Source: a virus. From it: a stretch of 51,708 bases of DNA. The notes under the pieces were generated by a model. That model ran no database searches and was not told the DNA's origin. It was given only the letters and a program-made list of their open reading frames with translations. Both the position numbers and the translations under genes were made by a program. Positions 219 to 10,164 of this stretch are shown one piece after another. Position 1 is the stretch's first letter, and each line of letters begins with the position of its first letter. Where the stretch lies: IMG/VR virus record IMGVR_UViG_3300043449_001420, positions 1 to 51,708 of that record. One strand, 5' to 3'.

Positions 219-361
219 TGTAACAGTTGCCAAAAATAAATTGTAACAAAGCGCAAATTATTTGCATTTTTTCCTTGACACGGGCAAAAATTATATGATA
301 TAATTTTGGCGCAGCCAGTACTACTTTTGTTTTCAATTTTGTCTTAAAACAAAAGTAGTAC
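219..361 (+). repeat. Intergenic cassette, copy 1 (opposing promoter, dyad, long hairpin)
   Basis: The copy holds, in order, two TGTAACA boxes (219-225 and 242-248), a perfect plus-strand sigma70 promoter (TTGACA 275-280, 18-nt spacer, TATAAT 299-304) whose -10 lies in an imperfect A/T palindrome, then GGCGCA, then a 16-bp perfect hairpin (318-333 with 346-361, 12-nt loop). The promoter points rightwards, against the surrounding minus-strand genes. Copies 2-4 share the layout. The function is unknown; operator, antisense RNA or small RNA are all possible. Confidence 0.7.
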
Positions 362-375
362 AAAAAATTTTGGGC

Positions 376-402
376 AAAAAAATACCCGCTTGCGCGGGTG
401 AG
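376..402 (-). terminator. Rho-independent terminator of the left-most membrane-protein operon
   Basis: A short G/C stem (ACCCGC 384-389, GCGGGT 394-399, loop TTGC) is followed on the minus strand by seven T. It lies just after the stop codon of the gene ending at 414. Confidence 0.8.
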
Positions 403-413
403 GTATTTGGTAT

Positions 414-629
414 TCAGAAAAAATTGTTATAAATTCCCAAAAGGTTGGCACAGAAAAATGTACCGTTTAGTACACCAAGTGCCTTGTCACGTTTACAAAA
501 GGCCACAATCAGCCATGAAAGTGAACCAAAAGTAAACAAAACATAGCCAATTTTAAACATTGCGCTTGCAACTGCAAACGAACCCAAAATTGAAACAAAA
601 GTACCAAACCAAGACAAGATATTAAGCAT
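414..629 (-). CDS. Small integral membrane protein, 71 aa
   Basis: Starting at MLNILSWFG the 71-residue product has about three hydrophobic helices with a short basic loop (CKRDK) before the last. This ATG overlaps the stop of the metalloprotease gene by 8 nt (ATGCTTAA), which suggests translational coupling; a longer upstream start would run through that gene. The pattern of a small inner-membrane protein with Gly, Trp and Asn in the helices is loosely like small PnuC- or PQ-loop-type proteins, but no family can be assigned with confidence. The terminator at 376-402 follows directly. Confidence 0.65.
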   Translation of the reverse strand: MLNILSWFGTFVSILGSFAVASAMFKIGYVLFTFGSLSWLIVAFCKRDKALGVLNGTFFCANLLGIYNNFF

Positions 630-1005
630 TTTTTCTGATTTCCATTGAGTGATAGGGGTTAGCATCAAGCCCATAGTTTACCATAATTTCACGCCATTTT
701 TTACCATGCCCGCAAATTTTTTCTGATTCTCCAAACAAATCGAAATCGGCTTGATGTATAATTTCATGCGGAAGTATTACATCCATCATGTTATTGAAGT
801 ATTCTGTTTTAGCTTTGAAAAATTTGTAACCCAATTGTATGCGGTTTTCAGCCTGAAAGCATTGTCCAGCGCAACGCCACAAGTAAGGATTAAGTTCTAT
901 TTTTGGTTCATTGTAGTGAACCAAAGGTGTATAAAGTTCGCAAAGTGAATCCCAAATCATTACAGTTTCGAGTTTCAGGTGTTTGAGTAAGGCTTTTTTG
1001 TCCAT
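622..1005 (-). CDS. SprT-like zinc metalloprotease domain protein, 127 aa
   Basis: The HEIIH motif at residues 80-84 is the gluzincin HExxH zinc site. It is followed by a third ligand in GHGKKW near residue 100, the HExxH...HG arrangement of the SprT/Spartan-like family. Family members cut DNA-bound or other proteins; the phage substrate is unknown. The start chosen is MDKKALL, since a longer reading would run into the promoter region of the upstream cassette. The stop overlaps the next membrane-protein gene. A TACAAT box lies about 8 nt before this ATG, so a very short or absent leader is possible. A second, smaller HExxH protein is encoded at 3613-3933. Confidence 0.7.
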   Translation of the reverse strand: MDKKALLKHLKLETVMIWDSLCELYTPLVHYNEPKIELNPYLWRCAGQCFQAENRIQLGYKFFKAKTEYFNNMMDVILPHEIIHQADFDLFGESEKICGHGKKWREIMVNYGLDANPYHSMEIRKNA

Positions 1006-1073
1006 GCTGAGATTGTACCACGAAAACGTGTTGTTTTTTAAACACACACAAAAAATAAGTTATTAAAAAATGC

Positions 1074-1197
1074 TTGACACGGCCAAATATTATATAGTAT
1101 AATATTGGCGCAGTTTTGAAAACAAAAGTATTCATTTTTGCAAATGCAAACTTTTGTTTTCAAAATGCCAAAAGCCCCATAATGGGGCTTTTATTAT
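1074..1197 (+). ncRNA. Intergenic cassette, copy 2: candidate small RNA of about 85 nt
   Basis: On the plus strand TTGACA (1074-1079), an 18-nt spacer and TATAAT (1098-1103) form a full-consensus promoter. A start near 1110 is followed by a perfect 15-bp hairpin (1114-1128 with 1151-1165) and then a terminator hairpin (AAAAGCCCC 1170-1178, GGGGCTTTT 1184-1192). No ORF of use lies between them. The result would be a short, doubly structured transcript pointing against the neighbouring genes. The terminator also works for the minus gene ending at 1194, so the small RNA is an inference. Confidence 0.5.
1168..1194. terminator. Bidirectional terminator hairpin
   Basis: AAAAGCCCC and GGGGCTTTT form a 9-bp stem with a 5-nt loop, with T-rich flanks on both strands. 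It sits directly after the stop codon of the PQ-loop gene (minus) and could also end the opposing cassette transcript (plus). Confidence 0.8.
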
Positions 1198-1442
1198 CTT
1201 TTGGGTTTAATCTTATAATATAAGATAATCCCGATAAATATTATGTTTGCAGTATAATTAAATATCAAGGGCCAATGCCATTTTGGGATAATATAAACAA
1301 TTGTAAATAATTCTCCCACGCCCCACATAATCAAAAATCCCCAAGTTAATCCGTCAGAGTTTTTGGTTTTAAATGATTCTATTGCCTGAGGTAATCCGCA
1401 AAATGCCAATAAAATCGAACCAATCCAGCCAATAGTTTCCAT
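1194..1442 (-). CDS. SemiSWEET / PQ-loop-like small transporter, 82 aa
   Basis: The 82-residue product has three hydrophobic helices and, at the end of the first, the GLPQAI segment with the Pro-Gln pair (residues 18-19) that defines PQ-loop proteins, followed by a polar KTKNSDGLTW loop. Size and layout match bacterial SemiSWEETs, half-size transporters that dimerise to move sugars or related solutes. An SD (CGGAG) lies 9 nt before the ATG, which overlaps the stop of the upstream 37-aa ORF (TAATG). Substrate and role in infection cannot be read from the sequence. Confidence 0.7.
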   Translation of the reverse strand: METIGWIGSILLAFCGLPQAIESFKTKNSDGLTWGFLIMWGVGELFTIVYIIPKWHWPLIFNYTANIIFIGIILYYKIKPKR

Positions 1443-1555
1443 TATATAATCTCCGTGACAGTTTGAATTTGAAAAGGGTTAATATCGTATTTTGTTTCTA
1501 GCCGCTTTTCCTCCAATAAATGAAGGCAAAGGGCGATTATATATAATGCTTTCAT
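1442..1555 (-). CDS. Microprotein, 37 aa
   Basis: A 37-codon ORF (MKALYIIALCLHLLEE...) starts at 1555. Its TAA overlaps the ATG of the PQ-loop gene (TAATG), the kind of junction used throughout this genome for coupled genes. The N-terminus is hydrophobic and the C-terminus polar. No strong SD is visible, and the start lies inside a 12-bp inverted repeat (1528-1563) that follows the exonuclease gene, so the ORF may be a chance reading of a structured spacer. Confidence 0.4.
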   Translation of the reverse strand: MKALYIIALCLHLLEEKRLETKYDINPFQIQTVTEII

Positions 1556-1563
1556 ATAATCGC
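1528..1563. other. 12-bp inverted repeat after the exonuclease gene
   Basis: GGGCGATTATAT and its reverse complement flank a loop of about 11 nt just past the exonuclease stop codon. No T-run follows, so it may stabilise or process the transcript, or be a weak terminator. Confidence 0.5.
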
Positions 1564-1571
1564 CCAGATAA

Positions 1572-2270
1572 TCAAGCGGCTTTGAAGTGGTCTTTTACCT
1601 GAAATTGTTTCCAATTATATGGGGTCATTTTCTCGCGCCAGTCACGCTTATTTACAATGGCTTGCAAAATCGGCAATTCAAAATCACGGGCATCTTCCAA
1701 TGCAGTATGCGGCTCGATTTTAAATTCACCATCAATAAATCCGCAAACTGATTCAGCCGTAGTGGAAAACGTCATATTGCGAAATTCAGTAGGCTTATTA
1801 AAAAGGTGATTTTGCAAAACAAAATCACGATATTGTTTTTTATTGCAAATATTGCCAATTGCGGCTTGCCACAAACAAAACTTATTTGAGAAACCCGACA
1901 AATCAATATTGGTATTTTGGCATTTATCCAAGTCAAAAGCCAGATTATATGCCGTCAAAATCGGGTCATATTTGCCAATGGCTTGATTAATCCATTTATT
2001 AATGGCATTCACGCTTGCAAGCATACGTGTGCCATTATCAAGCATTTTGACATAATTTGCTTTGCGTTTTTCCAAACCCGCATAACCCCAAATATCATTT
2101 GCTTTTTTGTCGTGAAACAATTCAAAATTGCCATAATGTTCATTTACCAAAACAGCGCATTGATTATGAATTTTGCCTTGACGGTCAACGATAATAATGG
2201 CAAAATCGGCCACAGTATTTTCAATTGTGGTTTCAGTGTCAAGAATTGCGAAGAATTGTTTTTTAGCCAT
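1572..2270 (-). CDS. DnaQ-like DEDDh 3'-5' exonuclease
   Basis: The 232-residue protein has the three exonuclease motifs of the DEDDh family. DTETT at residues 11-15 carries the first Asp and Glu, AYNLAFDLDK near the middle carries the second Asp, and PHTALEDARD near residue 190 carries the His and last Asp. Such enzymes remove nucleotides from DNA or RNA 3' ends; here it stands alone, not fused to a polymerase. The ATG at 2270 follows cassette copy 3 and a minus-strand TATAAT at 2335-2340. It belongs to the early small-gene block. Confidence 0.85.
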   Translation of the reverse strand: MAKKQFFAILDTETTIENTVADFAIIIVDRQGKIHNQCAVLVNEHYGNFELFHDKKANDIWGYAGLEKRKANYVKMLDNGTRMLASVNAINKWINQAIGKYDPILTAYNLAFDLDKCQNTNIDLSGFSNKFCLWQAAIGNICNKKQYRDFVLQNHLFNKPTEFRNMTFSTTAESVCGFIDGEFKIEPHTALEDARDFELPILQAIVNKRDWREKMTPYNWKQFQVKDHFKAA

Positions 2271-2334
2271 TTAGTTTCCAATTACCGGATACTGCCGGAA
2301 TTCGCAGATTGTAGCGTTTTGCTCCAATGAATGT

Positions 2335-2340
2335 ATTATA
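2335..2340 (-). promoter_or_regulatory. Minus-strand -10 element of the exonuclease gene
   Basis: TATAAT on the minus strand is followed by ACATTCATT, matching the TATAATA-N-ATACAT signature of the other early promoters. It is preceded by CCCGTG as at the promoter near 177. No good -35 box is visible at 16-18 nt. Confidence 0.45.
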
Positions 2341-2391
2341 CACGGGTTTTGCCCCAAAAGCCAGCCCCACGCAAAATTTTTTGAATTTAAT

Positions 2392-2523
2392 TTGTAACAA
2401 TCGCCGCCGACTGTTACAATTATTTTTGTTGTTTTTTGGCGAAACCCCTTGACAGGGGCCAAAATTATATGATATAATTTTGGCGCAAACTTGCAAACCA
2501 AAGTACTCATTTTTGGTTTGCAA
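2392..2523 (+). repeat. Intergenic cassette, copy 3
   Basis: The order is as in the other copies. A TTGTAAC/GTTACAA dyad (2392-2398, 2413-2419) comes first, then the plus promoter TTGACA (2449-2454), 18 nt, TATAAT (2473-2478). The -10 forms the right arm of a perfect palindrome (2459-2469 with 2473-2483, 3-nt centre). GGCGCA and a perfect 12-bp hairpin (2491-2502 with 2512-2523) with the shared loop sequence AAAGTACTCATT follow. The promoter faces the end of the 109-aa gene, against its direction. Confidence 0.7.
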
Positions 2524-2532
2524 ACCCAAGTA

Positions 2533-2862
2533 TTAATCTTGCCAGCCAAATAAAATTCTAGTATCTTCCTCATTTAATGTAACTGGATTACCATATTTAG
2601 CCAATAACAATAATTTATTGGCATTTTCCAAATCTTGCCAAGCATATTGTGAGTGCCAGCCAAAATAACTATTATTGTCTAGCCAGTTAATCGCTTGCTC
2701 ACGATTCATAAAATAGAAACCTTTACGCCAGCTAAATGTTTTATCAGCCATACGCCGATTAATTGCCTTTTCATCTTTAGTTTTGCGTTTTGCTAAAATA
2801 AATGCAATTGTTTTTTCAGCCGCTTCAATAACTTTATCAGCCGACATAATGATGGTTGCCAT
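2533..2862 (-). CDS. Unknown small protein, 109 aa
   Basis: I do not recognise a family. The product begins with a short Ala-rich helix-prone segment, has a basic stretch (LAKRKTKDEK) and several aromatic residues in the middle (FSWRKGFYF, YFGWHSQYAW), and ends acidic. It has no membrane segment or signal peptide. It lies 51 nt downstream of the HAD phosphatase gene on the same strand, so it is probably co-transcribed with it. The stop codon abuts the hairpin of cassette copy 3. Confidence 0.6.
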   Translation of the reverse strand: MATIIMSADKVIEAAEKTIAFILAKRKTKDEKAINRRMADKTFSWRKGFYFMNREQAINWLDNNSYFGWHSQYAWQDLENANKLLLLAKYGNPVTLNEEDTRILFGWQD

Positions 2863-2913
2863 TTTATATTCTCCAGATTAATTTGATTATATAATCCCCG
2901 AAGGGATTATATT

Positions 2914-3390
2914 TTAGTGACCTTGTTTGCTTGGAACATAAACCCCACGGATATTGAATCGGTCACAAACCGCTTTCAAATAGGTGGTATTATCTTCATA
3001 AAAAGTAAATTCAGCATCACGAAAGTTTTTCAAATTAAAGAATTTAGCCAAACCCGCGATTTTCAATTTACCGCCTGAAGTAGTATCTCCATCCATGCGT
3101 GAGATAATATAATCAGGTTCACCGAGAATATCACGAATAAATGTATTATCAGCTTCACGCAAAACGCGGGCAGTGGCAATAATCACAAAAGTATTTTCAT
3201 CCTTCAAATCTTGGCGATATTGTTGGGCCAATGGCAAAAGCGAATCATCCATTGCGCGGTATTCATTTTCGCGCCAGTAATTCAAATCAATACGCTCGCC
3301 ATTTTCGTCAACAATGGTACGATAACGGTGAAGTGAACACACAATAGTACCATCCATGTCGTAAATTGAAACTTTAGTAATCTTTGCCAT
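2914..3390 (-). CDS. HAD-superfamily phosphatase, 158 aa
   Basis: DMDGTIV at residues 11-17 is HAD motif I with the nucleophile and acid Asp. IIATAR in the middle supplies the motif II hydroxyl, and YEDNTTYL near the C-terminus the acidic motif. The compact form without a clear cap resembles the phosphatase half of polynucleotide kinase/phosphatase and phage 5'(3')-nucleotidase-like proteins, so a nucleic-acid end or nucleotide substrate is plausible but not shown. The start is MAKITK because AAGGA sits about 9 nt before it. A minus -10 (3424-3429) and cassette copy 4 lie upstream. Confidence 0.8.
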   Translation of the reverse strand: MAKITKVSIYDMDGTIVCSLHRYRTIVDENGERIDLNYWRENEYRAMDDSLLPLAQQYRQDLKDENTFVIIATARVLREADNTFIRDILGEPDYIISRMDGDTTSGGKLKIAGLAKFFNLKNFRDAEFTFYEDNTTYLKAVCDRFNIRGVYVPSKQGH

Positions 3391-3423
3391 TTTTTGCATC
3401 CTTGTTTGTTGCGGTATGTATGT

Positions 3424-3429
3424 ATTATA
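3424..3429 (-). promoter_or_regulatory. Minus-strand -10 element of the HAD gene
   Basis: TATAAT on the minus strand is followed by ACATACATACCGC, nearly identical to the sequence after the -10 at 172-177. The -35 is poor. It lies 34 nt upstream of the HAD start codon. Confidence 0.5.
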
Positions 3430-3471
3430 ACCCCAATTTTCCCGATTGTCCCCTATTTCCACAAAATAAAG

Positions 3472-3602
3472 TGTAACAATTTTCCCCGACTGTTACAATT
3501 AAATGTGTTGTTTTTATGGGAAAGCCCTTGACACGGGCCAATATTATATGCTATAATATTGGCGCAAATCTGCAAACAAAAGTATTCATTTTTGGTTTGC
3601 AA
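3472..3602 (+). repeat. Intergenic cassette, copy 4
   Basis: A TGTAACA/TGTTACA dyad (3472-3478, 3491-3497) is followed by the plus promoter TTGACA (3528-3533), 18 nt, TATAAT (3552-3557). The -10 lies in a perfect palindrome (3538-3548 with 3552-3562). GGCGCA and an interrupted hairpin of the GCAAAC...GTTTGC type around AAAGTATTCATT follow. It precedes the HAD gene on the minus strand and points against it. Confidence 0.7.
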
Positions 3603-4116: not shown

Positions 4117-4440
4117 TCAGGTCTTTTCAGCCTTGATGAAATCAGCGATTGCTTTCAATGCCGTTTTGTTGGCCTTGGTCAAGGAGTCGGCATCAGCCTC
4201 ACCCATGCCCAATGCCTGGGCAATGTAGTCTGCAAATTCATCCTTTTTAACCACGGCCTCACCCGTTTTGGTTTTGTAGGTCTTGGCTTGGTAAACCTTT
4301 TCGCGTGACAGTTTCGCAACAACTGAGCGCACAGTCTTGCCCAGTGTTTCAGCGATAGCCTCCACAGTAGTACCGGCTTGATAGTCGGCAACCATTTGGG
4401 CAGTTTGCTCGGGGGTATAGTTCACAGTTTTTGCAGTCAT
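4117..4440 (-). CDS. HTH-like small DNA-binding protein, 107 aa
   Basis: The N-terminal half (NYTPEQTAQMVADY, then VEAIAETLGKTVRSV) resembles a homeodomain/resolvase-type helix-turn-helix: a helix, a turn at LGKT and a recognition-like helix VRSVVAKL. The C-terminal half is Lys/Ala-rich and charged. The start is MTAKTVNY, because AGGAG precedes it by 7 nt. It is a close paralogue of the truncated gene at 1-124, so the pair flanks the early block. DNA binding is inferred and the target is unknown. Confidence 0.7.
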   Translation of the reverse strand: MTAKTVNYTPEQTAQMVADYQAGTTVEAIAETLGKTVRSVVAKLSREKVYQAKTYKTKTGEAVVKKDEFADYIAQALGMGEADADSLTKANKTALKAIADFIKAEKT

Positions 4441-4620: not shown

Positions 4621-4923
4621 GCATTTGGACAATTATTTTCTAGGTAGTTACCCTATGAGGTAGTTGGTTCACAAATTGCTTTGAAAACAAAAGTACACAT
4701 AGGGCGGTTAGTAGACTAAAGTATTCATATAGGCCAGTGGGCCCACCCACACGCGGCCTATGATAAAAAAATCCGAAACCATTCACGGTGCCAATACACG
4801 CCCCAATCGACCCTAAGCTGCAGCAAACCGCCCCCACCGTCCCAAACTTTCCCGACCACCCCAAAATTCCCACTTGCTGCCGCGGTGCCCTTCATGCTAT
4901 AATCGCCCCAAGAGGACAAATTT
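4621..4923. other. Divergent intergenic control region
   Basis: About 300 bp with no convincing gene lie between the leftward early block and the terminase operon. It holds a direct repeat AGGTAGTT (4642-4649 and 4658-4665) and two AAAGTA-N-NCAT motifs (about 4689-4723) like those in the cassette hairpins. There is also a G/C-rich inverted segment around GTGGGCCCAC flanked by ATAGGCC and GGCCTAT, and a C-rich strand up to 4870. The rightward promoter is at its right end. It may be a control region or origin; nothing here proves which. Confidence 0.5.
4874..4903 (+). promoter_or_regulatory. Promoter of the packaging operon
   Basis: TTGCTG (4874-4879), an 18-nt spacer and TATAAT (4898-4903), with an extended TGC before the -10. 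An AGAGGACA ribosome site follows, then the terS ATG at 4924. Confidence 0.65.
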
Positions 4924-5400
4924 ATGACACAAAACTTACCTGCTGCCACTGTACAAATCGCCCCGGAAGCCTTGGAAGTGGCCAATTGCTATTTACAAGT
5001 GCAAGACGCCAAAAAGGTCGCATACGAGCTGGATCTCACCCCGGACTTGGTCACCGAAATTTTAAGGCGCCGTGAGGTCAAGGCCTATATCGACCATGTT
5101 TTTATGGATACTGGATTCAACAACAAGTTTGAAATGCGTGCGGCCATGGATGCCTTAATCAAACAAAAGTTTCAAGAGCTGCATGAAGCCGGTACAGGGT
5201 CAACCAAAGATATTGCTGAATTGCTGCAAATATCGCATAAAATGAGCATGGACTTGCTAGACCGAGAAATTCAATTGGAGAAACTGCGCAGTGGTCCTAG
5301 CGGCCCACAAAAGCAAGTTAATGTTCAAATCAACGAAGGCTTAGACGGATCAAAGTACTCTAGCCTTATTTCAAAGCTGATTTCAGGAGACGGCGTATAA
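4924..5400 (+). CDS. terS: Terminase small subunit
   Basis: The 158-residue protein has an N-terminal helical region with a helix-turn-helix-like segment (residues about 28-55, AKKVAYELDLTPDLVTEIL) for binding the packaging site. A helical oligomerisation region follows, then a flexible Gly/Ser-Pro tail. That is the usual plan of small terminases, which recognise phage DNA and regulate the large subunit. Position at the head of the packaging operon supports the call, because primary sequence in this family is poorly conserved. One nucleotide separates it from the next gene. Confidence 0.75.
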   Translation: MTQNLPAATVQIAPEALEVANCYLQVQDAKKVAYELDLTPDLVTEILRRREVKAYIDHVFMDTGFNNKFEMRAAMDALIKQKFQELHEAGTGSTKDIAELLQISHKMSMDLLDREIQLEKLRSGPSGPQKQVNVQINEGLDGSKYSSLISKLISGDGV

Positions 5401-6553: not shown

Positions 6554-7833
6554 CTATCAGTCGCCCTGACGTTAACTGTGATGAGATTCAAGAGTTTGAT
6601 GCTGGTCAACGATTTATCAAGCTGCCTATTACCAACTACTTGAAGTTGTTGGGTATTTACGAGTCAATCAACCGACCCCAAATCGCACTAATCAACGCAG
6701 TCAACGACCCCAAGTACCGTTTTGTATGCGCCGCGCTTGCGCGCCGATTGGGTAAAACCTACATAGCCAACGTGGTAGGCCAGCTGGTGAGTTTGGTACC
6801 TGGATGTAATGTCTTAATCATGTCGCCCAACTATAACCTATCCGGCATTTCGTTTGAGCTACAACGCAAATTAATCAAGCACTTTGACTTAGAAGTGTCG
6901 CGCGATAACTTAAAGGACAAAATCATTGAGCTCTCAAATGGTTCTACCATACGTATGGGCAGTTTGTCTACTGTCGATAGTTGTGTGGGTCGTAGCTACG
7001 ATCTTATTATATTTGATGAAGCAGCGCTGGGCTCGGATGGAGAAGCTGCTTTCAATGTGGCACTTCGACCTACACTAGACAAGCCAAATGCCAAGGCAAT
7101 TTTTATCTCCACACCGCGTGGTCGCAACAACTGGTTCAGCCAATTTTGGAATCGTGGATTTGACTCAAACTTTCCTGAATGGGTTAGCCTACAGGCTGAC
7201 TATTCGGAGAACACTCGCATGGCTGAGTCGGATGTGGCTGAAGCTCGCAAGTCGATGAGCAAAGCTGAATTTGAACAAGAATACTTGGCCAGCTTCACAG
7301 TGTTCGAGGGTCAAATTTACTCGCTAGCTGAAACGGATGTTTGTGAAGTGCCACCAGATTTAATAGGTGAGGCTATTGCTGGCTGTGACCCTGGCTATCG
7401 TGACTATACTGCTTTTGTTGTAATCATCTATGATGCGGTTAATGACGTGTTTTGGATTGTGGATGAGTACTTGGAAAATGAAGCAACCACTGCACAACAC
7501 GCAGAAAGTTTCCGCGAGCTTTGTAGTAAGTGGGGTGTGGAAACAATCTTTATTGATAGTGCAGCAGCACAGTTTGCTTCAGACCTTGCATACATCTACG
7601 ACTTGGCATCAACCAAAGCTAAAAAGGATGTCTTACCCGGAATTGCATATGTGCAAACACTGGTGGCTCAGAATCGTTTAAAAGTAGCCCCTCACTGTAC
7701 ACACGCATTAGCGGTGTTTGACCAGTATCGCTGGGATACCAAAGAAGGTTTACAGAAAGAACGTCCAAAGCATGATGACTACTCTCACATGGCTGATGCA
7801 ATTCGTTATGCTCTTTATACATATACTTTGTAA
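6547..7833 (+). CDS. terL: Terminase large subunit (ATPase-nuclease packaging motor)
   Basis: The start is MLTISRPDVN at 6547, overlapping the SHMT stop (ATGCTAA) with GAGG upstream, giving 428 aa. The ATPase half has an atypical Walker A, LARRLGKT (64-71), Walker B LIIFDEAA (153-160) and the coupling motif FISTPRGRN (about 186-194). The RNase H-like nuclease half shows its acidic residues in CDPGYRDYT (D281), IFIDSAAA (D337) and the C-terminal DDYSHMADAI. It translocates DNA into the prohead and cuts it. The 3' end overlaps the convergent GIY-YIG gene by 19 nt. Confidence 0.95.
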   Translation: MLTISRPDVNCDEIQEFDAGQRFIKLPITNYLKLLGIYESINRPQIALINAVNDPKYRFVCAALARRLGKTYIANVVGQLVSLVPGCNVLIMSPNYNLSGISFELQRKLIKHFDLEVSRDNLKDKIIELSNGSTIRMGSLSTVDSCVGRSYDLIIFDEAALGSDGEAAFNVALRPTLDKPNAKAIFISTPRGRNNWFSQFWNRGFDSNFPEWVSLQADYSENTRMAESDVAEARKSMSKAEFEQEYLASFTVFEGQIYSLAETDVCEVPPDLIGEAIAGCDPGYRDYTAFVVIIYDAVNDVFWIVDEYLENEATTAQHAESFRELCSKWGVETIFIDSAAAQFASDLAYIYDLASTKAKKDVLPGIAYVQTLVAQNRLKVAPHCTHALAVFDQYRWDTKEGLQKERPKHDDYSHMADAIRYALYTYTL

Positions 7834-8396
7834 TTAAAAAGTCTGTCAAACCAGTTGAGTTTGTTTAATCGCTTGAGCTCGGCTTCAGCTTCTTTATACT
7901 CATCGTGCCAGTGTTGTGCTGCGTCTACTACTTCAGTATAGTCGCTATCAATAATATAACCAGCTTCTTTGTACTCTTTTACAAGTGCTTCTGCTGCTGC
8001 TTGCTTTTGATCTGCAGCATCTATTTCGGCTTGAGCACCATGAATAATCTCCAAGTGCTGTATGGTACTCAAGTGTAGTAGTTCTTTACTTTTATTGATT
8101 AATATAGCTACTTCATCAGTACGTTCTACCGCCGGATAAGTTGTGTTTAACATATCCAAGCTTTTTTCTTGGTCGATTAACAACTCTTCTAGTATGTCAA
8201 TATGGTCTTTGTGACAGTAGATTAGTACTTCTGTTTTGGGCAAGCCACAACGATCGTACTCAATTTGCATTGGTCGTGCTGCTTTGCCTGTGGCAAATTT
8301 ATTAAAGTGCTGTTTCCATCTGGTTTCCAAGTCCAGTGACTTGCCAATGTAGTATTTACCCGAACTAAACGTTAATCTATATATTCCTGAGGCCAT
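7815..8396 (-). CDS. GIY-YIG endonuclease, counter-oriented
   Basis: GIY at residues 4-6 and YIG at 16-18, the conserved Arg (R26) and a long helical, coiled-coil-like C-terminus define a GIY-YIG nuclease of about 193 aa. It lies on the minus strand inside the plus-strand late operon, with its own promoter (TTGAAC, 17 nt, TATAAT at 8417-8422), and its end overlaps terL. The start is taken as MASGIYR because transcription from that promoter begins at about 8409 and leaves GGGA just upstream. The layout is typical of a free-standing mobile nuclease; homing activity is not demonstrated. Confidence 0.85.
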   Translation of the reverse strand: MASGIYRLTFSSGKYYIGKSLDLETRWKQHFNKFATGKAARPMQIEYDRCGLPKTEVLIYCHKDHIDILEELLIDQEKSLDMLNTTYPAVERTDEVAILINKSKELLHLSTIQHLEIIHGAQAEIDAADQKQAAAEALVKEYKEAGYIIDSDYTEVVDAAQHWHDEYKEAEAELKRLNKLNWFDRLFNYKVYV

Positions 8397-8416
8397 GAGT
8401 TTTCCCATAAAATTAT

Positions 8417-8979: not shown

Positions 8980-10164
8980 ATGAATATATTTACAAGAAGT
9001 GCAGATTGGTTTCGCGAAAAACTAAATCCTGCGCAGACACGAATTGCAGAAGGCGAAGGTTCCCAAGTCGGAACAGTTGCCAAAATAGCTTACACACAAG
9101 CATTTAAAAAGTTGGAGTCAGTTAACAGACCTGTTAATATGTTGACTTCTGCTTGTAGTTCATTGGACTACGACATTAAAGATAAAGTACATGATGGGGT
9201 TGTAGTTGGTGTTCGTCAAAAGACGCTTAATACACTACTTAACTTTCGCCCTAATCCGTATCAAAGCGCACAAGATTTTCGTACTGCACTGTTCACAGAC
9301 TTTGTCCTAGAAGGCAACGCGTTTGTACACTTTGACGGTACTTTTATGTATCACTTACCTGCAGCAGCTGTAGAAATCTTAACAGATAGCAAAACGTTTA
9401 TTCGTGGGTTTCGTTACAACGGTGCGGTTGATTTTACTGAATCAGAAGTATTTTACTTTCGAGATTTGAGTTCAGACAGTATTTATCGTGGAGCTAGCCG
9501 ACTACAAAGTGCTGAGCGTTCAGTGAATATTCTTTACTCAATGCAACAGTTTCAGGAAAGTTTCTTTGACAACGGTGCTATATTTGGTTTAGTGCTTACT
9601 ACTGATAATACGCTGTCGCAAGTTGCCAAAGAAAAGACAATTCAGTACTGGCTACAAAAATACAATACCAAGCTAGGTGCCAAGCGTCCTGTTATCTTGG
9701 ATAGTGGACTAAAGCCGCACGCACTGGCCCAAACAAATTTCAAAGACATGGATTTTGATCAGAGCATCAAAACTCATGCAGAAAAAATCACACAAGCAAT
9801 TGGTGTACCGCCTATCTTACTAGAAGGCGGTAATAATGCTAACATCTCGCCTAACTTACGTTTGTTCTACTTAGAAACAGTACTACCAATTAATCGTAAG
9901 TTTATTAGTGCAGTAGAGCGTTATTTTGGTTATGACGTAGAAGCTATTACTAGCTCCGTTAGCGCCCTACAACCAGAGCTAAAAGACATTGCTGCGTATC
10001 ACAGCACACTAGTTAATGCCGGTATTATTACACCAAACGAAGCTCGTACTGAGTTACGTTATACCACAATAACTGGTAACGATGATTTACGAATTCCTGC
10101 AAATATTGCAGGTTCAGCCGCAAATCCTAGTACTGGAGGACGACCCGCCTCCGCTAAGGAATAA
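8980..10164 (+). CDS. Portal protein (HK97 family)
   Basis: At 394 aa it has the length and features of HK97-type portals: an N-terminal wing with VNRPVNMLTSACSS, the central NALVHF-like segment (EGNAFVHFDG), the stem region with QAIGVPPILLEGG and the clip/crown region FYLETVLPINRKFISAVE. The C-terminus is a Gly/Pro/Ser tail. It forms the dodecameric ring at one capsid vertex through which TerL pumps DNA. An AGGGAA ribosome site lies 5 nt before the start, and it is immediately followed by the capsid gene. Confidence 0.92.
   Translation: MNIFTRSADWFREKLNPAQTRIAEGEGSQVGTVAKIAYTQAFKKLESVNRPVNMLTSACSSLDYDIKDKVHDGVVVGVRQKTLNTLLNFRPNPYQSAQDFRTALFTDFVLEGNAFVHFDGTFMYHLPAAAVEILTDSKTFIRGFRYNGAVDFTESEVFYFRDLSSDSIYRGASRLQSAERSVNILYSMQQFQESFFDNGAIFGLVLTTDNTLSQVAKEKTIQYWLQKYNTKLGAKRPVILDSGLKPHALAQTNFKDMDFDQSIKTHAEKITQAIGVPPILLEGGNNANISPNLRLFYLETVLPINRKFISAVERYFGYDVEAITSSVSALQPELKDIAAYHSTLVNAGIITPNEARTELRYTTITGNDDLRIPANIAGSAANPSTGGRPASAKE

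Follow-up and report, generated by a model that had tools for sequence, protein, structure and literature searches.

The left end of a viral DNA of 51.7 kilobases (kb), the whole of IMG/VR record IMGVR_UViG_3300043449_001420 (51,708 nucleotides, hereafter the window), carries four copies of an intergenic cassette in which a promoter is directed against the surrounding genes. The window encodes, among others, capsid, portal, terminase, SbcC/D-like and dUTPase proteins, a gene set that places it near the T5-like phages; the best named match was a Vibrio T5-like phage both for the capsid-protease fusion (~37% identity) and for the large terminase (~49% identity). Small minus-strand genes fill the left 4.4 kb, and all four cassettes lie within this block, while the structural genes start at 4924 on the plus strand. 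The products of the left block are a DUF6552 protein, two SprT-like proteins (one of them slightly under the Pfam cut-off), a PQ-loop protein, a polynucleotide-kinase-like protein, a D5-like DNA-binding protein and a protein that matches only an unassigned phage family. A comparison of the left 5 kb with named phages found no similarity, and no transfer RNA was found in the window.

Four promoter cassettes in the left gene block

Each cassette is composed of a plus-strand promoter (P+), a palindrome around its −10 box (H1), the letters GGCGC and a second hairpin (H2), and the coordinates of these parts are collected in Table 1. The sequence TTGACA-N16–19-TATAAT occurs six times in the window against a chance mean of 0.08, and no shuffle reached six. 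An original prediction, made from the letters of the window, had described four such promoters facing minus-strand genes, and their positions proved exact, as did the strand of the flanking genes. The same prediction took the −10 box to be the right arm of a palindrome, and this was confirmed, with perfect arms of 12 base pairs (bp) in copies 3 and 4, one mismatch in copy 1 and a one-base slip in copy 2. GGCGCA follows the −10 box in all four copies, and the motif AAAGTA(C/T)TCAT is present in copies 2–4, again as predicted. The downstream hairpins fold at −20.9, −17.7, −15.8 and −9.8 kcal/mol in copies 1–4, respectively, and here the prediction stood with the reservation that copy 4 is weak when taken alone. 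The hairpin of cassette 3 ends 9 nucleotides short of the stop codon of the minus-strand gene at 2533–2862. Given the terminator-like hairpin behind cassette 2, the predicted P+ RNA of that cassette would be ~80 nucleotides long.

Table 1. Features of the four cassettes and of their surroundings in the window (P+, promoter; H1, palindrome around the −10 box; H2, second hairpin; z, fold z-score).
Feature	Position	Strand	Support
Promoter candidate behind cassette 1 (TTGAAA-18-TATAAT)	172–201	−	
Cassette 1 P+ (TTGACA-18-TATAAT, extended −10 TGA)	275–304	+	consensus match
Cassette 1 H1, one mismatch	284–310	+	
Cassette 1 invariant GGCGC	308–312	+	
Cassette 1 H2, 16 bp, 12-nucleotide loop	318–361	+	z −6.1
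Terminator-like hairpin just beyond gene 414–674	384–399	−	
Cassette 2 P+ (TTGACA-18-TATAAT, without TGN)	1074–1103	+	consensus match
Cassette 2 H1, one-base slip	1082–1109	+	
Cassette 2 invariant GGCGC	1107–1111	+	
Cassette 2 H2	1114–1165	+	z −3.8
Terminator-like hairpin and T-rich tail behind cassette 2, P+ direction	1170–1192	+	
Cassette 3 P+ (extended −10 TGA)	2449–2478	+	consensus match
Cassette 3 H1, perfect 12-bp arms	2458–2484	+	z −4.6
Cassette 3 invariant GGCGC	2482–2486	+	
Cassette 3 H2, 13 bp	2491–2523	+	z −3.6
Promoter candidate behind cassette 4 (GGGACA-17-TATAAT)	3424–3452	−	
Cassette 4 P+ (extended −10 TGC)	3528–3557	+	consensus match
Cassette 4 H1, perfect 12-bp arms, paired A/T exchange relative to cassette 3	3537–3563	+	z −3.8
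Cassette 4 invariant GGCGC	3561–3565	+	
Cassette 4 H2, bulged	3571–3601	+	z −1.5 (weak alone)
D5-like DNA-binding protein gene, candidate trans-acting factor	4117–4440	−	phrog_323, E 2.4e-7

Conservation, orientation and structure in related phages

Cassettes were found in hundreds of IMG/VR stretches. A first scan, for GGCGC preceded by the palindrome's right half (TATATNNTATAATWTTGGCGC), matched at least 118 stretches; of four further patterns for other palindrome classes, one matched at least 120 stretches and the others 66, 60 and 104, the scans overlapping. The set collected comprised 507 non-redundant cassettes from 306 loci, 428 of which were counted as typical; the redundancy filter was 85% identity over about 130 nucleotides, and the cassettes are therefore not independent events. 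Membership of this larger set depended on TTGAC and on a GGCGC shortly after the −10 box, and only a set of 120 non-redundant sites was free of a −35 requirement. In those 120 sites TTGACA was nevertheless present at exactly 18 bp in 108 cases and 11 more matched five of its six letters. The constant core of the cassettes is TTGACA-17/18-TATAAT plus GGCGC, in which the distance from the −10 box to GGCGC varies by 0–4 nucleotides. The extended −10 letters TGN were found in 95% of the same 120 sites and on the plus strand only, although the symmetry of the palindrome would not demand this.

The capsid protein of the window is encoded in all ten large contigs tested (57–86% identity), and the 48 core matches in these contigs, array sites included, all lie on one strand per genome, which is the strand of the capsid gene; they sit upstream of that gene and point towards it. 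The arrays stand near the block edge in some contigs and consist of promoter-like sites whose spacer contains GGNTTNNCACT, together with repeats reading CACTGGCGCA. Searches of named phages with the 38-nucleotide core gave short chance-level matches only, none covering 80% of it, and no cultured phage that carries the cassette came to light. A looser pattern matched 16 stretches in 84,980 bacterial and archaeal genomes, and GGCGC was present in none of the 15 that were re-read, indicating that the cassette is not a host or prophage element.

The direction of P+ relative to its neighbours was strongly biased. The nearest downstream gene within 400 nucleotides (open reading frames of at least 80 codons) lay antisense to P+ in 287 cassettes and in the sense direction in 64, whereas the same measure gave 23 antisense and 131 sense for ordinary consensus promoters in the same contigs; the reading frames were called mechanically, so that some of the exceptions will be miscalls. 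These ordinary promoters lack GGCGC, have mostly 16–17-bp spacers and are often followed shortly by a start codon. The commonest layout is a cassette between two genes that both run against P+. Promoter-like sites on the minus strand were found behind P+ in 25% of cases compared with 2% in shuffles, and the promoter of the next gene and P+ are thus often back to back. Pairs of TGTAACA boxes had also been predicted, and they are indeed present in copies 1, 3 and 4 of the window, but the 7-mer is not enriched there (19 occurrences against 17.3 expected) and a pair lies within 120 nucleotides upstream of only 31 of the 428 typical cassettes; the boxes were therefore rejected as part of the core and are regarded as incidental.

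Next to this constant core, the letters of the palindrome were found to change while its pairing is kept. The left half of H1 is recognizable in 342 of the 428 typical cassettes, and in 335 of these 342 it mirrors the stretch that separates TATAAT from GGCGC; 1000 permutations gave 207 such cases on average and 223 at most. The remaining 86 cassettes stand outside this count and some of them have no palindrome at all. Paired changes in the two arms include CCAAAATTATA/TATAATTTTGG, CCAATATTAT/ATAATATTGG and CCGATTATAC/GTATAATCGG, and the length of the arms, the distance between the half-sites and the outer letters all vary with complementarity retained. An alignment of cassettes from related phages had been proposed as a check on the original prediction, and with pairing kept despite changed letters its claim of selection for structure is well supported by the comparison.

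The same applies to the second hairpin. An inverted repeat follows GGCGC in 246 of 280 cassettes of the first set, compared with 15 of 280 after shuffling, and H2 was found in 353 of the 428 typical cassettes of the larger set, with a mean arm of 12 bp and about 2% mismatches. The mean fold z-score was −3.7 for H2 and −1.0 further downstream. Phages that have a cassette at the same gene carry H2 hairpins of entirely different sequence there, which bears out the predicted selection on structure, and clustering by k-mers gave 116 groups, 79 of them with a single member. The first base of H2 lies mostly 6–13 nucleotides after the −10 box, where transcription would start, so that the predicted RNA begins with the hairpin. 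H2 is as frequent with a terminator of the upstream gene (80%) as without one (83%) and is therefore assigned to P+, not to the upstream gene. No Rfam 15 family matched at the curated threshold, all matches being below it.

A number of other features were observed around the cassettes. The motifs AAAGTACACAT and AAAGTATTCAT, of the form AAAGTA(C/T)(A/T)CAT common to cassette hairpins, precede the terminase gene of the window (4690–4728, within the region 4681–4740, plus strand) near a CATAGGGCGGTTAGTAGAC stretch that has counterparts ahead of the terminase gene in a relative. Hairpins containing AATGAGAATGATTCTCATT reappear among the H2 of some relatives, and some cassettes are arranged in tandem, for example at loci L044, L061, L002 and L017, the second following immediately on the hairpin of the first. 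Behind cassette 1, a gene truncated where the contig ends (1–124, minus strand) looks like another copy of the D5-like gene, and a GIY-YIG homing-endonuclease-like gene lies between the terminase and portal genes on the opposite strand (7815–8408, minus). In part of the related cassettes, chromosomal parS, exact or nearly so, was found 24–57 nucleotides behind GGCGC (39 of 44 distinct contexts in 36 loci, for example L017, L028, L048, L086 and L151), and none is present in the window. It is exact (TGTTTCACGTGAAACA) in 24 contexts, and this 16-mer is a published chromosomal parS (PMC7022226). Phages with parS next to their cassettes may recruit or titrate the host ParB protein.

Possible roles of the cassette

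One interpretation of these data, which we favour at a probability of roughly 45%, is that each cassette gives rise to an antisense RNA with a hairpin cap, which insulates leftward units of a single gene from one another. P+ would be a working promoter for the host sigma-70 polymerase that sits immediately past the 3′ terminus of a leftward gene, and the next leftward gene often has its own promoter back to back with P+. Host RNA polymerase would start at or beside GGCGC, and the 5′ end of the RNA would fold at once into H2, which should guard it against 5′-end-dependent decay. The RNA would end at a nearby terminator where there is one, as behind H2 in the P+ direction in some copies such as cassette 2, and would otherwise continue into the upstream gene from its 3′ end, as an antisense transcript. 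Firing of P+ against incoming polymerases, together with antisense pairing, would then keep neighbouring units separate, while H1 may act as an off-switch in which a hairpin or cruciform hides the −10 box. The anatomy, conservation, orientation and compensatory changes are directly observed, and transcription, insulation and the switch are deduced from them. The comparison supports well the idea, already voiced in the original prediction, of a source of antisense or small RNAs, as H2 begins at the predicted RNA start and TGN stands on the plus strand only in 95% of sites. The cassettes suggest that antisense hairpin RNAs, or transcription insulators, of a class not described before are at work.

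Note, however, that several points weigh against this interpretation. Insulation alone does not explain the need for a palindrome. By a sequence criterion only, H2 resembles an intrinsic terminator in just 25 of 353 cases, which leaves many P+ RNAs without an obvious end; the T content of the 10 nucleotides after H2 is only 26–43%, short of the T-run of such terminators. A wobble test for the strand that bears the hairpin as RNA gave 18 G-T against 28 A-C pairs (p 0.18), with no strand indicated. An early wobble asymmetry (18 A-C against 7 G-T) had faded with more data, and a terminator control showed the test to have no power.

The palindrome could instead be read as a dispersed operator at which a phage regulator, either a repressor or an activator, shuts P+ or the promoter back to back with it; the D5-like protein encoded in this block is one example of such a regulator. 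Dyad symmetry over a −10 box is typical of operators, and the D5-like gene is the most frequent neighbour of cassettes in relatives. A dimeric binding protein, however, normally needs fixed spacing and letters, and the constant half-site sequence and distance of a dimeric-repressor operator are not what the cassettes display; with this varying geometry the operator proposed in the original prediction was not borne out and is improbable. More improbable still is that the structure is unselected, polymerase template-switching having copied one arm onto the other to leave perfect palindromes, with the cassettes spreading as repeats. The near-perfect pairing (about 2% mismatches) without a clear wobble preference agrees with such copying, but neither the link of the hairpins to a full-consensus antisense promoter and GGCGC nor the set start of H2 relative to the promoter is explained by it. 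Template-switch mutation could, all the same, contribute to the perfection of the palindromes.

Promoter-early stem-loop (PeSL) cassettes are those that Arbiol (2010) and Comeau (2014), as cited in PMC4503421 and PMC5348500, are said to have described in T4-type phages such as RB49 and phi1. On this model our cassettes would mainly be recombination modules, repeated promoter-hairpin seams for swapping nonessential early genes among related phages, with effects on expression being secondary. Exchange between phages affects both the upstream motifs and the H2 families, the cassettes sit among small, apparently nonessential genes, and H2 hairpins from one locus resemble each other more than those from different loci do (25% against 5% of pairs share >0.3 of their 7-mers). 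We nevertheless consider it unlikely that this is their main role, as the constant stretch is only about 35 nucleotides while homologous recombination needs long identical stretches, selection for pairing under changing letters is unexpected for a mere seam, and the RB49 promoters of this kind run with their genes. Shuffling of the PeSL type may coexist with insulation. A further reading, in our judgement quite unlikely, takes GGCGC as a T5-type single-strand nick site between two hairpins, with the 3′ end left in H1, the 5′ end before H2 and the promoter opening or marking the site. In the T5 sequence used (GenBank AY543070) nicks are annotated NPu/pGCGCN on the capsid-coding strand (a slash marks the nick), and TG/GCGCN stands on that strand in 10 of 10 genomes tested; the T5 nick at 9748 follows GCAC-AAAA and precedes a hairpin, and the arrays of relatives read GCACT...GGCGC. 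That the distance from the −10 box to GGCGC is variable would also fit a GGCGC that does not depend on the start site. Against this, the letters after GGCGC are variable, so that the extended nick consensus R/GCGCRGG (PMC3517423) is not matched and the nick link remains a lead. The GCGC motif is short and a nick is not demonstrable from sequence, T5 nick sites carry no promoter, and no homologue of T5 A1 was found in a search that had no positive control.

Returning to the antisense insulator, a broader claim can be put forward tentatively, and it is doubtful that all of it holds. The cassette would be a regulatory element of a new class, in which a near-maximal antisense host promoter has its −10 box in a compensation-kept palindrome acting as a hairpin or cruciform switch, hairpin-capped antisense RNAs insulate early genes, and the block-edge arrays may double as T5-type nick or DNA-transfer signals. 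There is no textbook role for a promoter of full sigma-70 consensus that is found at several places in each genome of a large group of uncultured phages and is aimed at gene 3′ ends. If the proposal is true, the cassette is a compact insulator and antisense-RNA module exchanged among phages, with a possible connection to the long-unexplained single-strand nicks of T5, and several hundred natural variants make its structure rules directly testable in a reporter.

Comparison with known systems

Like PeSL cassettes, the elements studied here are short composites of a strong sigma-70 promoter and a stem-loop, intergenic, repeated among small variable genes, with a make-up that is mosaic when relatives are compared; a palindromic spacer is likewise present in some RB49 promoters (TTGACAGGGGATCGGTGATCCCCTATAAT). 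The PeSL promoter, however, drives adjacent genes, whereas P+ runs against them; in RB49, 18 of 20 such promoters are on the reverse strand, the one that carries the genes over the 40 kb examined. The PeSL stem-loop is an effective transcription terminator, whereas H2 is placed downstream of the start site and in most cases has no U-tract. In addition, the −10 box of our cassettes is part of a palindrome and the phages are T5-like. The cassettes thus resemble PeSL but fail two of its defining features, the gene-driving promoter and the terminator stem-loop.

The likeness to T5 nick sites is of another kind. TTGGCGC or ATTGGCGC of the cassettes fits NPu/GCGCN, and the motif is confined to the capsid-coding strand at all 48 sites of the ten genomes, but T5 sites have no palindromic −10 box. 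In the injection-stop region of T5, the last of a series of GTCGGATTTGCACA repeats runs into the nick GCAC-AAAA/GCGC, which is followed directly by the hairpin. Fur-box-like repeats TGATAATGATTCTCA were noticed in addition to the GTCGGATTTGCACA repeats of this region (locus L154, AY543070, 9140–10149, minus strand). The GGATTTGCAC repeats of T5 resemble the array sites of the relatives.

RNAs of the ompA type are protected by a 5′-terminal stem-loop. The predicted cassette transcript likewise has a hairpin at its very 5′ end, but unlike those RNAs it would have no gene behind the hairpin, and the sequence of the hairpin is freely exchanged.

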